From: Verrucomicrobiia bacterium
GTDB taxonomy: Bacteria > Verrucomicrobiota > Verrucomicrobiia > Verrucomicrobiales > DEV007
Length of the DNA stretch: 64,000 bases
Direction of reading: 5' to 3'
Assembly: GCA_030427505.1 (NCBI GenBank)
Contig: JAUICH010000007.1
Span: 1-64,000, forward strand
Made by a program: the position numbers and the translations under genes. Shown here in pieces: positions 1 to 33,069 of this stretch. Within the stretch, counting starts at the first letter, position 1. Each line of letters starts with the position of its first letter. The notes below the pieces were generated by a model. It searched no databases. It was given only the letters and a program-made list of their open reading frames with translations, and had not been told where the DNA came from.

Positions 1-87
1 TTGAAAAACCGGCTCCGGCATCTGATCTGCTCGATGGACATCCATCCTTTACTATTTCGTAAAACTTAACATTCTCAACCACTTATA
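1..87. other. Window edge, no gene seen
   Basis: I see no coding region, RNA gene or clear repeat here. The short reading frames between 1 and 515 fall on the repeats that follow and have no recognisable protein character. The gene beyond the left edge is not in the window. Confidence 0.6.
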
Positions 88-316
88 TTTGTCCACACTG
101 CCTAGTGCTCAGACAAATCTAAAGTGACGGGTGCTTGATTGGAGGGAAGAGTTGCGGGCAATAGAACGCGGTACGGTCTTTTTGGCCGGTGCCTTCGTTG
201 CTCGTCAGTTGGATATGGTTCACATAGCCGCCTTCCTCGCGCCTTGGCCCCGGCCAAAAATCCTCGCCAATCACCCGTCACTTTAGCTCTGCCTGAACAC
301 TTGGCAGTGTCAAAAA
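88..316. repeat. Fold-back repeat element, copy A
   Basis: Large imperfect palindrome. The inner arms CTAAAGTGACGGGTG (119-133) and CACCCGTCACTTTAG (272-286) are perfect complements. Beyond them, 88-118 and 287-316 are still complementary with mismatches, the left one starting TTTGTCCACACTGCCTAG. Inside, TTTTTGGCCGG (179-189) pairs with CCGGCCAAAAA (250-260) around a core containing GTTGCTCG and CCTTCCTCGCGCCTTGG. The core is related to copies C, D and B in this window. It looks like a MITE/REP-like element or a structured RNA/DNA motif; no transposase is present. Confidence 0.75.
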
Positions 317-519
317 ATTGGAGAACGGACTGGAAAGGAAGAAAAGGAAAGAGAACTCTGCGCCGCGAAGCGGCGAATACCTGAAGACGCAGCCCATTTT
401 TCGCCTGGCTTTGTTCCCGCTCACTCTATTGGGGGTAGGCCCAATAGAGTGAGCGGCGCCTTGCCAGTCCAAAAAATGCTCTCGCGCCGGGCCGCCCCCA
501 ATTTGTCCACACAGCCTAG
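300..519. repeat. Fold-back repeat element, copy C
   Basis: About 220 bp, closely related to the copy at 24132-24350. Degenerate left end CTTGGCAGTGTC (300-311), right end GTCCACACAGCCTAG (505-519). Internal structure: a small hairpin CGCCGC-GAA-GCGGCG (361-375); an outer stem CATTTTT..CTGGC (395-409) with GCCAG..AAAAAATG (463-478); and an apical perfect 15-bp stem, GCTCACTCTATTGGG (419-433) with its complement at 440-454. The terminal CTAG (516-519) provides the TAG stop codon of the dihydrolipoyl dehydrogenase gene on the minus strand. Confidence 0.8.
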
Positions 520-1907
520 AAATGGATGGCGTGACCGAACGCGTCGCTGGTGGCTTCGTGAATGGCTTCGGATAACGTGGGGTGAGCGTGAATGGTGTTT
601 TCCAACTCTTCCCACGTCGCTTCCAAGGTGATGCCGAGGCCCATCTCGGCGATGAGTTCGGTGGCTTCGGCGCCGATGATGTGGGCGCCCAGCAGTTCGC
701 CGTATTCTTCGCCGAAGATTAGTTTCACGAAGCCTTCCGGTTCGCCCGCCGCCTGGGCCCGGCCACTGGCCTGGAAGGGGAAGCGGCCCACTTTGTAGGC
801 GATGCCCTTTTCCTCGCAAGCACGCTCGGTGAGGCCGATGCTGGCCACTTCCGGATGGCAGTAAGTACAACCGGGGAAAATAGTGACTTTCTTCGGCGTA
901 TGTCCTTCGACGTAAAGGCCTTCCACAGTGTGGACGGCTTCGAAGGACGCCACATGGGCCAGCCACGGAGGCCCAATGATGTCCCCGGCGGCATAGACAT
1001 TCTTCATGGAAGTCTGGTAGCGGTCATCGACCTCGATATAGCCACGGTCCGTGAGTTTGAGGCCTTCTGAATTGCCGGGCAGGACGGGTTGAACCCCGAC
1101 GGCCACCAGGCAGTAGTCGGCGGAGATCTGCTGGCTGTCTCCGCCCGCGGCGGGTTCGACGGTGAGGGTCACTTTATCGTCGGCAAGATCCGCGCTGGCG
1201 GTCTTGGTGCCGAGCAGGAAGTTGATGCCCTGTTTCTTGAAGGATTTCTCGAGTGCCTTGGAGATCTCAGTGTCTTCCACGGGCAGGAGGTGATCCATCA
1301 TTTCGACGATGGTAACCTTCGTGCCGTAGGCATTGAAGAAGTAGGCGAACTCCACGCCGATGGCACCGGCGCCAATGATGATGATTTCCTTCGGCTGGCT
1401 TTCCAGCACCATGGCTTCGCGGCTGGAAATGACGCGGGGATGTTCGTAGGGGAGGAAGGGCAGGGGGCGGGACTTACAGCCGGTGCTGATGAGAATGTCC
1501 GTGCCTTCGAAGGTTTCGGTCTTTCCGTCTTTGTCCGTGACTTCCACTTTCCCTTCACCCGCCAGAGCACCGGTGCCGCGGATGTAGTCGACCTTGTTCT
1601 TCTTGAAGAGAAATTCAATCCCGCCGGCGAGTCGTTCGGAGACTTTCCGGGAGCGCTTGATGATGGCGGACCAGTCGTAGGAAAGGTTGTCGATCTTGAA
1701 GCCGAACTCCTCCGCGTGGTGAGTCATGTTCCAGTAAAGGGCGGCATTCTGGAGCAGCGCCTTTGTAGGAATGCAGCCCCAGTTCAGGCAGGTGCCGCCG
1801 GCACGGTCGTTTTCCACGCAAGCGACTTTTTTGCCGAGCTGAGCCGCGCGGATGGCGCCGACATAACCGGCCGGGCCGCCGCCGATGACGATGAGATCGT
1901 ATTTCAT
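516..1907 (-). CDS. lpdA: Dihydrolipoyl dehydrogenase (E3)
   Basis: FAD-dependent flavoprotein that reoxidises the dihydrolipoyl groups of the pyruvate dehydrogenase E2 core, passing electrons to NAD+. 463 residues, the usual length. N-terminal FAD motif GGGPAGYVGA at residues 9-18, redox-active pair C40/C45 in GGTCLNWGCIPTKA, a central NAD-binding motif GAGAIGVEFA, and the C-terminal dimerisation motif HPTLSEAIHEA with the catalytic His-Glu pair. I chose the ATG at 1907 (MKYDLIV) because the 37 residues upstream in frame do not match the family. Last gene of the pdh cluster, 82 bp after E2. Its stop codon lies in the end of repeat copy C. Confidence 0.97.
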   Translation of the reverse strand: MKYDLIVIGGGPAGYVGAIRAAQLGKKVACVENDRAGGTCLNWGCIPTKALLQNAALYWNMTHHAEEFGFKIDNLSYDWSAIIKRSRKVSERLAGGIEFLFKKNKVDYIRGTGALAGEGKVEVTDKDGKTETFEGTDILISTGCKSRPLPFLPYEHPRVISSREAMVLESQPKEIIIIGAGAIGVEFAYFFNAYGTKVTIVEMMDHLLPVEDTEISKALEKSFKKQGINFLLGTKTASADLADDKVTLTVEPAAGGDSQQISADYCLVAVGVQPVLPGNSEGLKLTDRGYIEVDDRYQTSMKNVYAAGDIIGPPWLAHVASFEAVHTVEGLYVEGHTPKKVTIFPGCTYCHPEVASIGLTERACEEKGIAYKVGRFPFQASGRAQAAGEPEGFVKLIFGEEYGELLGAHIIGAEATELIAEMGLGITLEATWEELENTIHAHPTLSEAIHEATSDAFGHAIHF

Positions 1908-1989
1908 GAGAGAGTCAGGCTTAGGAAAAGAAAGAATGGTAGTTTTGTTAGGGCCGGGTGAGGCTCGGCGGCTTGTTGGGAGGCAGGAA

Positions 1990-3273
1990 TCACACCAGCA
2001 TGAGCGCCGGGCTTTCAATCAGGCGGCGAAGTTCGGCCAGGTAGGTGGCTCCCACGGCGCCGTCGATGACGCGGTGGTCGCAGCTCATGCCGATCCACAT
2101 GCGGTCGCCGGGGACAATGTCGCCTTTTTCGTTCACCACGGGGACCCGTTTGGCGGTGCCGATGGAGAGAATGGCGGCCTGGGGAGGGTTGATGATGGCG
2201 TCGAAGTTGTCGATGCCGTAACCACCCAGGCTGGATACGGTGATGGTGCCGCCCGCGAATTCGTCCGGGGACAGGCGTTTGTTCCGCGCACGGGCAGCCA
2301 GGTCTTTGACCGACTGACTGATCTCTAGAAGGGTCTTCTTGTCCGCGTTGCGAATGACCGGCGTGACAAGCCCGTCCTCCACCGCGATGGCGACGGAAAG
2401 ATTGACCGCGGCATAGCGGATGATGCTGTCCTCATCGAAGGAGGCATTGACCATGGGCACGGCCTTGGCGGCGGCGATGACGGCTTTCAGGATGAAGTCG
2501 TTCAGGGAGTACTTGTTACCGTTCTCCTGTTTTTCAGAGACGGCGTTGATCTGCTTCCTGAAAGCCATCAGCGGACCGGCATCCACCTCGATGTTGAGGT
2601 AGAAGTGGGGGATGGTGGTCTTGCTGATCATGAGGCGTTCCGCGATGATGGAACGCATGCCGGAAAGCTTGATCCGTTCGTCTTGATCCGAGGCCGTGGG
2701 TTTGATGGCCTTCGGAGCGGCGGCACCGCCCTTGGTGGGAGCCGGGCCTTCTTTGGCCGCCTTTTCCACGTCCGCCTTCACGATGCGGCCGCCTGGGCCG
2801 GAACCCTTGACGGAGGAGAGTTTCACGCCCTTGGCCTTGGCGATCTTTTTGGCGAGCGGAGAAGCCTTGATGCGTTTTCCGCCGGCGTCTTCGGTCTCGT
2901 CTGCTGAGGTCGCGGTGTTGGTGGTGGAAGCGCCTTCACTGCTGTCTTCTTTGGAGCCGGAAGAGCCGTCGCCGCCGGATTCCGTAGTTCCGCTGTCGGC
3001 GGGTGGTTGATCGGCATCGGCCGGTGGTTCCTCTCCTTCGTCCAGTAAGAGAGCGAGCTTGGCCCCGAGCGGAGCTTTCTCACCCTCTTGAACATAGAAT
3101 TTGTGGATCTTTCCTTCCTCAAAGGACTCCATTTCCATGGTGGCCTTGTCGGTTTCCACCTCGGCGATGACGTCGCCCATGGCGACGGTGTCGCCTTCTT
3201 TCTTGAGCCACTTGGCGAGGGTGCCCTCGGTCATCGTGTCGCTCAGTTTCGGCATTTCAATGTAGGAAGCCAT
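1990..3273 (-). CDS. pdhC: Pyruvate dehydrogenase E2, dihydrolipoamide acetyltransferase
   Basis: Core of the pyruvate dehydrogenase complex: transfers the acetyl group from lipoyl-lysine to CoA. 427 residues. Domains: one lipoyl domain (about 1-80) with the lipoylated lysine K43 in ETDKATME; a long acidic Ser/Gly/Thr-rich flexible linker (about 80-134); a peripheral-subunit-binding domain (about 136-171, ASPLAKKIAKAKG..GPGGRIVKADVE); and the catalytic acyltransferase domain from about 200, ending with the active-site motif DHRVIDG (H400, D404). Lies 74 bp downstream of E1-beta and 82 bp upstream of E3. Substrate specificity is inferred from the neighbours. Confidence 0.95.
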   Translation of the reverse strand: MASYIEMPKLSDTMTEGTLAKWLKKEGDTVAMGDVIAEVETDKATMEMESFEEGKIHKFYVQEGEKAPLGAKLALLLDEGEEPPADADQPPADSGTTESGGDGSSGSKEDSSEGASTTNTATSADETEDAGGKRIKASPLAKKIAKAKGVKLSSVKGSGPGGRIVKADVEKAAKEGPAPTKGGAAAPKAIKPTASDQDERIKLSGMRSIIAERLMISKTTIPHFYLNIEVDAGPLMAFRKQINAVSEKQENGNKYSLNDFILKAVIAAAKAVPMVNASFDEDSIIRYAAVNLSVAIAVEDGLVTPVIRNADKKTLLEISQSVKDLAARARNKRLSPDEFAGGTITVSSLGGYGIDNFDAIINPPQAAILSIGTAKRVPVVNEKGDIVPGDRMWIGMSCDHRVIDGAVGATYLAELRRLIESPALMLV

Positions 3274-24131: not shown

Positions 24132-24350
24132 CTAGGGTGTATGGACCGATTCCCGAATCGCCCGGAATAGATGAAAACGGAAGTCAGAATCAGCGCCGCA
24201 AGCGGCGAATTTTCCAAAAACGCGGCCCATTTTACGCCTGGCTGCGTTCCGCCTCACTCGATTGGGGTCACCCAACGGCGTTCGGCGCGCCTTGCCAGCC
24301 GAAAAATGGCCTCGCGCCGGGCAGTCCGCCAATTTGTCCACACACCCTAG
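24132..24350. repeat. Fold-back repeat element, copy D
   Basis: 219 bp with inverted ends CTAGGGTGTATGGAC (24132-24146) and GTCCACACACCCTAG (24336-24350). Shares internal blocks with copy C: the small hairpin CGCCGC-AA-GCGGCG (24194-24207), CATTTTACGCCTGGC, GCGCGCCTTGCCAG, AAAAATGG, CCTCGCGCC and CAATTTGTCCACAC. The apical hairpin differs in sequence from copy C (GATTGGG / CCCAAC, with non-identical flanks) but is in the same place. It fills most of the 320-bp trpS-mutS divergent region and ends 10 bp before the mutS start. Confidence 0.85.
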
Positions 24351-31425: not shown

Positions 31426-31502
31426 CGGGAGGGATTCCGTTTTTGATCCGGTGCGAATTCTGCTATGGTTTTCCCGCCTGGGGTGGGGTGCCCCGTGGAA
31501 TT

Positions 31503-32882
31503 ATGACCAAATCGCAAGCTGCAGTCTTTTTTGGTATCATCTGCCTGGGGGCGGTGATCTCTGTTGTTTCTCTCGTTGTCCTCGATGGCGACAAAGACGT
31601 GGTCCTGCCCAATACGGGCTCGGTGCCAGCCATGGAAGAGGAGGCAGCCGCCACGGTTCCCAAGCCGGAACCTGAGGAAAAGCCAGACATGACTTCACCA
31701 GCAGCACCCGCCACGGCGCCTGCCGCGGAGGCTCCTCCGGCAGTCATGGCGGAGAAGGAAGGCGTCGTTACGGGCCCCGCGCCAGACATGCCGGAGGTCG
31801 CGGTTTTCAACTCCCCGGCGGAACTGATGAAAGCTCTGACCGGCGCCGTGCAGGCCAGGGACATGGATGCCGTGGCCGGCATTGCGGGCGATGAGGCCCT
31901 CTCGGATGAGAACCGGAACCGGGTGGGTTCGCTGCTTCAGGACGAAACGCTGACGCCCGCGCCCGCGGACAGTCCGCGTCAAGTGGCCAAGGTGGCCGGG
32001 GGCGAGCGCTGGGTGATTTCTCTGGTGGCGGCGGAAGGCGCCATGGGCGCGGAGTTGTATGCCGATCTGAGTAAAGACGCGGAGGCCGGCTGGGGCGTGG
32101 CGAAACTGTTTCCACAGCGGGTTAATGAAATGAAGGTCGCGGTTACTTCCGAAGACGCCCTGATGGTGGCCCACCAGTTCGTGAAATCCGTCATCGAGAG
32201 AGACTTCGATCAGGCGCGGGAATTTGTGAATCCCAATAAGGTAACCGACGAACGCATCGCGGCGCTCTTTATCGCGATGGAAGAAGGAGGGTTCGCCCTC
32301 CGGTCTGAGAATCCGCTGGTACAGACTTTGGATCAGGACGAGCTCGCCTGGGTCATCGCCCGGGTCCAGTCCACCCAAGAGGCCTCCGAGTTCGGCCTCA
32401 CGCTGGATCGCGCGGCTCAGGAAAAATGGATGGTTTCGGAGCTGACTTTTTCCAAGTTGCTTAACACTCTCGCCATGCAGGGCGGCGCGGGTGGCGTGGC
32501 CTACTCTCCCATCATCACCAATCCGCAGGCGGGAGACCTGCTGGTGCTCTACTTTGAGTTTAACGAGGATCAGTTGACCGCCCGCGCCTTGAAGCAATTG
32601 AAGATCATTTCCGACATTCTGAAAAAGAGTCCGGTCCGGAAGATCACCATCGACGGCTACACGGACGCGATCGGATCCGATTCCTACAACCTGGGGCTTA
32701 GCTCGAACCGCTCCGTGGCCGTCAAGGAAGCCCTGTTGAACATGGGTGTCCCACCGGAACAAATTCTGACCCGGGGCCTGGGCGAGGCCAACCCGATCAG
32801 CCCGAACGAAAATCCCGATGGCACGGATAACCCGCAGGGCCGTTCCCAAAACCGCCGCGCGGAAGTTTACCTGGATCTCTAG
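31503..32882 (+). CDS. OmpA-family peptidoglycan-binding envelope protein
   Basis: 459 residues from ATG 31503; a TTG at 31443 would add 20. The N-terminal helix (SQAAVFFGIICLGAVISVVSLVVL) anchors it in the inner membrane, followed by an acidic Pro/Ala-rich linker, a central unrecognised region (about 100-320), and a C-terminal OmpA/MotB domain (about 345-459) with YFEFNEDQLTARALKQLKIISDIL, IDGYTDAIGSDSYNLGLSSNRS and NRRAEVYL. It probably ties the membrane to peptidoglycan. The TAG stop is formed by the CTAG end of repeat copy B. Confidence 0.9.
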   Translation: MTKSQAAVFFGIICLGAVISVVSLVVLDGDKDVVLPNTGSVPAMEEEAAATVPKPEPEEKPDMTSPAAPATAPAAEAPPAVMAEKEGVVTGPAPDMPEVAVFNSPAELMKALTGAVQARDMDAVAGIAGDEALSDENRNRVGSLLQDETLTPAPADSPRQVAKVAGGERWVISLVAAEGAMGAELYADLSKDAEAGWGVAKLFPQRVNEMKVAVTSEDALMVAHQFVKSVIERDFDQAREFVNPNKVTDERIAALFIAMEEGGFALRSENPLVQTLDQDELAWVIARVQSTQEASEFGLTLDRAAQEKWMVSELTFSKLLNTLAMQGGAGGVAYSPIITNPQAGDLLVLYFEFNEDQLTARALKQLKIISDILKKSPVRKITIDGYTDAIGSDSYNLGLSSNRSVAVKEALLNMGVPPEQILTRGLGEANPISPNENPDGTDNPQGRSQNRRAEVYLDL

Positions 32883-33069
32883 TGTGGTGTTTGCGAAATA
32901 TCTAGACGAAATCAATTAAGCTTTAGAGCCGGAAATTGGCTCGCTTCGCTCGGATGTTTTTATCATCGCGGTCTTCTTTTCCAATTTCCGCGTTGCTCGA
33001 TCAGTCGTTGAGCTTGCTCAACTCCTTCCTCGCGAATTTCGTCCACCTATTTCGCAAACACCACACTAG
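32879..33069. repeat. Fold-back repeat element, copy B
   Basis: 191 bp with perfect 22-bp terminal inverted repeats (32879-32900 and 33048-33069) that begin CTAGTGTGGTGTTTGCG. Nested stems: GACGAAAT (32905-32912) with ATTTCGTC (33036-33043); CGGAAATTGG (32930-32939) with CCAATTTCCG (32981-32990); and an apical hairpin GTTGAGC-TT-GCTCAAC (33007-33022). The blocks CGGTCTT, CGTTGCTCG, TCAGT and CCTTCCTCGCG are shared with copy A. The first CTAG includes the stop codon of the OmpA-family gene; the right end is 15 bp from the sprT-like stop. Confidence 0.88.

Follow-up and report, generated by a model that had tools for sequence, protein, structure and literature searches.

Two adjacent MITEs at the end of lpdA share a hairpin core that is probably under selection

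Introduction

What are the two long fold-back sequences that stand back to back beside lpdA, and is their fold what selection maintains? They lie at the start of the window, the 64,000-nt stretch of a Verrucomicrobiia contig analysed here. A preliminary description placed a palindrome A at 88-316 and a palindrome C at 300-519, named two relatives (B and D), and proposed from paired arms of changing sequence that the fold itself is selected. The two palindromes are real: single-strand folding gave z = -6.6 for positions 80-320 and -4.9 for positions 298-522, with 0 of 200 shuffles as good.

Results

A and C are neighboring non-autonomous transposons (MITEs), distinct from each other and each slightly decayed. 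The row begins with the end of an IS5-family insertion sequence (IS; 1-104, plus strand; TIR ATTTGTCCACACTGCCTAG), which is cut by the contig edge; positions 1-106 are 100% identical to an IS end at G000:C48:25188-25293 and to sequence on three other contigs. Element A follows at 103-302 on the plus strand (TIR TAGTGCTCAGACAAATCTAAAGTGACGGGTG / CACCCGTCACTTTAGCTCTGCCTGAACACTT), its site being the CTAG at the IS end, and is followed in turn by C at 301-518, also on the plus strand, a MITE of a 217-bp family with the IS5 TIR TAGGCAGTGTGGACAAATTGG and a mutated left TIR (TTGGCAGTGTCAAAAAATTGG). The last TA of C belongs to the TAG stop codon of lpdA (516-518, minus strand; ORF 516-2018, minus strand), which comes from the right TIR of C. 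The IS, A and C share their junctions because the element end CTAG is itself a target site. The limits first proposed for the palindromes therefore do not hold, since 88-102 is the IS end and 303-316 the left TIR of C; in the arms 87-137/268-318, the TIR of the IS pairs with that of C around A's own TIR. Pairing conserved in position and not in sequence was confirmed for the core described below but not for the outer arms, which are TIRs kept by transposition, the outermost ones of A being those of its neighbors.

Two further elements of the window belong to the same group. Element B (24133-24349, plus strand; TIR beginning TAGGGTGTATGGAC) is a C2-type MITE upstream of mutS with a core at 24219-24318 (94.4 bits), and element D (32879-33069, plus strand) carries a third TIR type (CTAGTGTGGTGTTTGCGAAATA) and an internally deleted core at 32965-33058 (38.2 bits); its TAG is the stop codon (32880-32882) of an OmpA-like ORF at 31443-32882. 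The flanking blocks TTCGTT, GCGCCTTG and CTCGC, reported earlier for A and C, are common to all four elements. More than 50 relatives of A and C were found in the same genome, where copy numbers are lower bounds. Among the 41 matches listed for A, a copy at C51:265255-265453 is 97% identical, and copies end in CTAG on both sides; relatives of A with other TIRs (A2, A3) also occur. Element C is represented by dozens of copies (83-91% identical), including full ones with intact TIRs that measure 217 bp from TA to TA.

The ends of C are those of an 860-bp IS5-family IS at G000:C48 in the same genome, with the same 19-bp end; it is an end of this IS that stands at 1-104 of the window, and CTAGGCAGTGTGGACAAAT is present on the ends of both the IS and the C-type MITEs. 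A complete copy of this IS (L095, 1933-2792) encodes an IS5 transposase (NF033580, 224.9 bits against a cut-off of 110; also DDE_Tnp_1 and DUF4096). The TIR pattern TAGGSWGTRTGGACAAATT occurs 190 times in the 6.4-Mb draft genome, against 0 occurrences of the reversed control. The base to the left of the TA is C or T and the base to the right is G or A, varying independently of each other, which identifies the duplication as TA within YTAR. A paralogous empty site agrees with this: in L009, a C element (C1) lies inside the CTAG of a D-type element, and its joined flanks give uninterrupted D sequence. The 217-bp copies have no transposase of their own, with no protein-coding ORF across them. Mobility of C at the element level is well supported.

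For A and D, both with CTAG-flanked TIRs, none of the four DDE_Tnp_1 matches of the draft genome is a partner IS, so that the IS5-type assignment, established for C by its shared ends, is tentative for these two. A search of 16 genomes of other lineages with NF033580 found no IS with a 12-mer in common with the MITE ends. Two candidates for an autonomous counterpart were rejected. No transposase resembling that of the C partner was found in 154 loci beyond the known IS copies, which discounts an autonomous IS5 element bearing the core; and a TIR pattern search for a Phaeodactylibacter-family IS returned 18 ends, which by their listed coordinates form pairs spanning about 140-190 bp and no pair as long as an IS. 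At G000:C28:9016-9520 (L111), a second IS5-type transposase survives as a remnant that is 35-39% identical, lies in two frames and has no clear TIR pair.

What A, B, C and D have in common is a hairpin core of about 100 nt. It lies at 170-268 in A (minus strand; covariance models R1, 93.7 bits, and R2, 95.3 bits) and, as a diverged variant, at 386-488 in C (minus strand; R1, 79.5 bits; R2, 60.1 bits). Cores of A1-A3, C1, C2 and D align in one register, with 89.4% of cells paired compared with 67% when shuffled and 36-49% when slid, and a covariation score of 0.529 versus 0.172 ± 0.022. With model R1, 45 of the 236 class genomes proved to contain the core, and with the second model 33 of 289 genomes of the phylum; the 191 class genomes with no match, together with IMG/VR, served as negative controls.

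To reach further, a sequence pattern with free N, R, Y and N′ positions was searched over a collection of named genomes. It yielded at least 106 matching stretches in records of at least ten phyla, many of them MAGs, so that single taxon titles may be wrong: Verrucomicrobiota, Acidobacteria/Vicinamibacteria, Myxococcales/Deltaproteobacteria, Planctomycetota, Elusimicrobia, Eremiobacterota, Nitrospinota, Acidimicrobiia, Bacteroidota (Phaeodactylibacter, Lewinella) and Alphaproteobacteria (Sphingomonas, Sphingopyxis, Erythrobacter, Novosphingobium, Aureimonas). Isolates with 41, 14, 10 and 9 copies are among them (Phaeodactylibacter xiamenensis with 41 and Sphingomonas tagetis with 14), and all 15 named genomes tested contain between 1 and 75 core matches, 5-75 being the usual number in a lineage. 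The preliminary description would have been abandoned had no further copies existed in related genomes; the core is in fact present in dozens of other genera and many phyla. The ends around it differ by lineage (for example GAACCTGTTTGGATAAAAAC, GGGCCTGTTAAGG, GGGTCTGCTCAAAAATAAC and GAGTCTATCTCC, with TA or TNA duplications) and resemble ends that we take to be of IS5 type. The exact core pattern matched 0 stretches in IMG/VR, and two Alphaproteobacterial copies had no plasmid match.

Covariation was evaluated in two ways. In a pattern-matched set left unaligned to any structure, the isolated pair N-N′ that lies between TC/TC mismatches is Watson-Crick in 94 of 103 sequences, against a mean of 36 and a maximum of 55 in shuffles; in the dereplicated set it is so in 46 of 50 (shuffled 18 ± 3). 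The R-Y pair gives Fisher p = 3e-18, and 4e-9 after dereplication. A covariance model-guided alignment (A3) of 127 sequences, 79 of them below 80% identity, placed the top APC-corrected mutual information almost entirely on one helix. Against 300 alignments simulated along a FastTree tree with matched column rates (a null that we built ourselves in the manner of R-scape and that is not R-scape itself), 23 column pairs among all column pairs of the 79 dereplicated sequences reached E ≤ 0.05, and all 23 fall within one nested helix. Six pairs (10-91, 11-90, 26-76, 30-72, 35-67 and 38-64) were absent from the model that built the alignment, and the significant pairs include isolated ones between TC/TC mismatches that are kept in place in approximately 60-69 of the 79 sequences. 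Covariation thus exceeds the phylogenetic background, as had been anticipated. Selection on the fold, proposed originally for the whole palindromes, is supported for the stretch of about 100 nt alone (A 170-268, C 386-488), and we conclude from these alignments that this core is probably the selected, structured part of the elements.

The same mismatches bear on which strand is functional. They read 5′-TC/5′-TC on the top strand and 5′-GA/5′-GA on the bottom strand, three times over (33-34/68-69, 36-37/65-66 and 40-41/61-62), and the latter we take to be the signature of sheared tandem G.A pairs. On the top strand, departures from pairing in the basal stem are A.C in 62 cases and G.T in 13 (p = 8e-9), which puts G.T/G.U on the bottom strand; the bias is 24:3 at 65% dereplication, which removes phylogenetic dependence from these counts only in part, and weaker (10:2) when columns 16-18 are left out. 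Folded as RNA, the minus (bottom) strand is the better one in 62 of 69 sequences (p = 2e-11; mean -46.1 versus -38.6, with a difference of -0.9 in the shuffled control), and the single-pair island arises unprompted in 53 of 69 minus-strand folds compared with 6 for the top strand. For the core of A the values are -41 kcal/mol (z -4.4) on the minus and -36.9 (z -2.9) on the plus strand. DNA folding parameters likewise prefer the minus strand (58 of 69), and energy therefore does not separate RNA from single-stranded DNA. Taken together, G-U tolerance and predicted folding energy point to the GA (minus) strand as the functional one, and the core probably acts as RNA or single-stranded DNA of that strand.

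Discussion

We favor, as the most likely reading and with rather more confidence than doubt, that A and C are IS5-type MITEs with a selected hairpin core whose GA strand works as a protein-bound RNA. IS5-family transposases would act in trans on the inverted ends of the MITEs, placing them at YTAR and duplicating the TA, and since element ends are themselves such sites, the IS, A and C could become stacked; insertions that recreate TAG would make gene ends a harmless home. On the minus strand, the core would fold into a long helix, its three tandem GA/GA mismatches alternating with islands of one or two pairs, with an apical hairpin above. A fold that outlasted the turnover of TIRs and stem letters in at least ten phyla would have to serve the element, an argument that rests on conservation of the core through many TIR exchanges. 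The GA strand, as RNA, might be bound by a widely conserved protein of the host or of transposition and so aid mobility or tolerance; we infer the RNA nature of the core (over single-stranded DNA), its partner and its benefit. Still more tentatively, and with the balance against it, the core might represent a class of structured RNA carried by transposons in at least ten phyla, with tandem sheared GA pairs in its helix as the hallmark whatever the type of TIR. Such an RNA would bring in a universally conserved protein and thereby open many different IS5 transposases to non-autonomous elements.

Second comes the possibility, less probable than the RNA reading, that the selected form is single-stranded DNA, the GA strand folding during replication or transposition and being recognized by a protein of recombination or transposition. 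DNA, too, forms sheared tandem G.A as well as G.T pairs, DNA parameters also favor the GA strand, gene orientation gives no preference for the GA strand in mRNA, and the copies of the window have no promoter-like site; indeed, neither promoter-like nor terminator-like sites were found in 60-540, with 0 intrinsic terminators (GC stem plus T run) and stems that, whichever strand is read, have T on their 5′ and A on their 3′ side. To our knowledge, however, IS5-family DDE transposases do not use folded single strands. Copies on one contig run in both directions with no obvious replication-strand bias, as judged informally by coordinates, and it is the RNA energy model that yields single-pair islands in 53 of the 69 folds.

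A cis-acting role in mRNA, by which copies transcribed with their neighbors would determine how stable the mRNA is or how it is processed (a role proposed for ERIC and REP), appears unlikely. Many copies do adjoin gene ends: among 70 copies, the TAG of a TIR forms the stop codon of a flanking gene in 22 (in the window, those of lpdA and the OmpA-like ORF), and 2 lie inside an ORF, both counts being approximate, as ORFs were called mechanically. Such a distribution is expected anyway from YTAR targeting plus the loss of gene-disrupting insertions, and an insertion in the TA of a stop codon recreates TAG and is therefore harmless. The left gene reads into the element on the top (plus) strand more often than not (35:19 and 42:17), which would agree with cotranscription, but right-hand genes are unbiased. 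Flanking genes thus tend to read the plus rather than the minus strand, which counts against a minus-strand mRNA element, and most flanking mRNAs would carry the top strand, with the worse fold and no GA/GA motif. Because the orientation bias is only mild, a role in cis is less likely than one for the element itself.

The remaining explanation, that the fold is under no selection and quasi-palindrome template switching rewrites one arm from the other, is disfavored and very improbable, as this process, which the window shows to occur, would erase mismatches, while TC/TC stays in about 60-69 of 79 sequences as the single pair between covaries, and the asymmetry of A.C and G.T together with blocks shared across phyla calls for selection or for some other cause specific to one strand. 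That arms exchange sequence by template switching is nevertheless certain, and it helps the stem turn over. Its trace in the window is the perfect apical hairpin of C (417-456), which was noted earlier as 15 bp long and has 17 bp (arms 417-433/440-456). An 8-nt quasi-palindrome change at about 446-453 (GCCGTTCG to AGAGTGAG), seen in 1 of 33 readable copies, produced it, and the hairpin is accordingly a quasi-palindrome correction, a private mutation and no conserved feature.

Returning to MITEs with a structured core as the preferred reading, we compared them with known systems. Rfam release 15 gave no family above the gathering threshold on the cores, only tRNA and RNase P elsewhere, and the literature searched held no published description of the core sequence as such. 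The core is new to the sources searched, and its nearest published kinds are IS711 with Bru-RS and MRSC-65-2. IS711/IS6501 of Brucella is an 842-bp IS that duplicates TA at YTAR and inserts in a 103-bp palindromic repeat (PMC3163539). The IS described here is similar (860 bp, with the same target and duplication), and Bru-RS1 (in Brucella with Bru-RS2), at 103 bp, is too short for both TIRs and a core of about 100 nt and is set apart by description. MRSC-65-2 is a structured mobile/repeat candidate defined by repeated UYCCGG (PMC11109978); it resembles the core in its single long stem, strong covariation, dozens of copies per genome, presence in several phyla and occasional proximity to a transposase. 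In contrast to its definition, UYCCGG occurs once in 5 of 79 cores and twice in 0 of 79, which places the core outside MRSC-65-2; the core could be among the 250 mobile/repeat candidates of the same source.

Other short palindromic repeats are more distant. ERIC and Correia-type (CREE) elements are, like ours, short and non-autonomous, with many intergenic copies and a long hairpin; they are reportedly confined to narrow lineages and so are set apart by description. REP/BIME sequences with RAYT (TnpA_REP) are likewise high-copy extragenic palindromes, and the inverted double cores described below recall paired REPs. REPs are 20-40 bp long, carry a GTAG or CGTC tag, and have no TIR or TSD; our elements, at about 200 bp, with IS5-type ends, TA duplication and a 100-nt core, fall outside this kind. 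A hammerhead- or kink-turn-like reading of CTGACGA and the GA pairs was also considered and rejected, as the core is one long hairpin with no 3-nt bulge and no Rfam match.

MITEs are usually seen as two ends with an empty middle, whereas in these elements it is the interior that has stayed more conserved across phyla than the ends. Strong, background-corrected covariation and a precise non-canonical motif would imply a function inside a bacterial MITE and a conserved partner. Should the core act as RNA, it would be an abundant class of structured RNA that Rfam release 15 lacks; should it act as single-stranded DNA, DDE transposition would have a folded DNA signal of a new kind. In both cases the base pairs to be mutated have been identified, and a direct test is possible.

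Several variants were observed among the copies. Many elements carry two cores head to head, 6-20 nt apart, on either side of a GC-rich, CCGAAGG-like center (L170, L202, L203, L205, L210, L177, L153, L155, L142 and L152); the ancestral element may have been an inverted dimer of end plus core. Elements of about 114-115 bp (L049, L051 and L052) have both C-type TIRs and no core, and mobility may thus not need the core. Two C copies (L050, 1225-1519, and L096, 1-229) share the same palindromic insert of about 78 bp (TTCGCTTCGCTTCAGGGGGTTGCGAGCCGCTTCGCGGCCGAAG) on the core's 5′ side, which looks like one more nested repeat. Finally, an element at L106 (611-829) is a recombinant with C2-type ends around a C1-type apical region, which attests to recombination between families.
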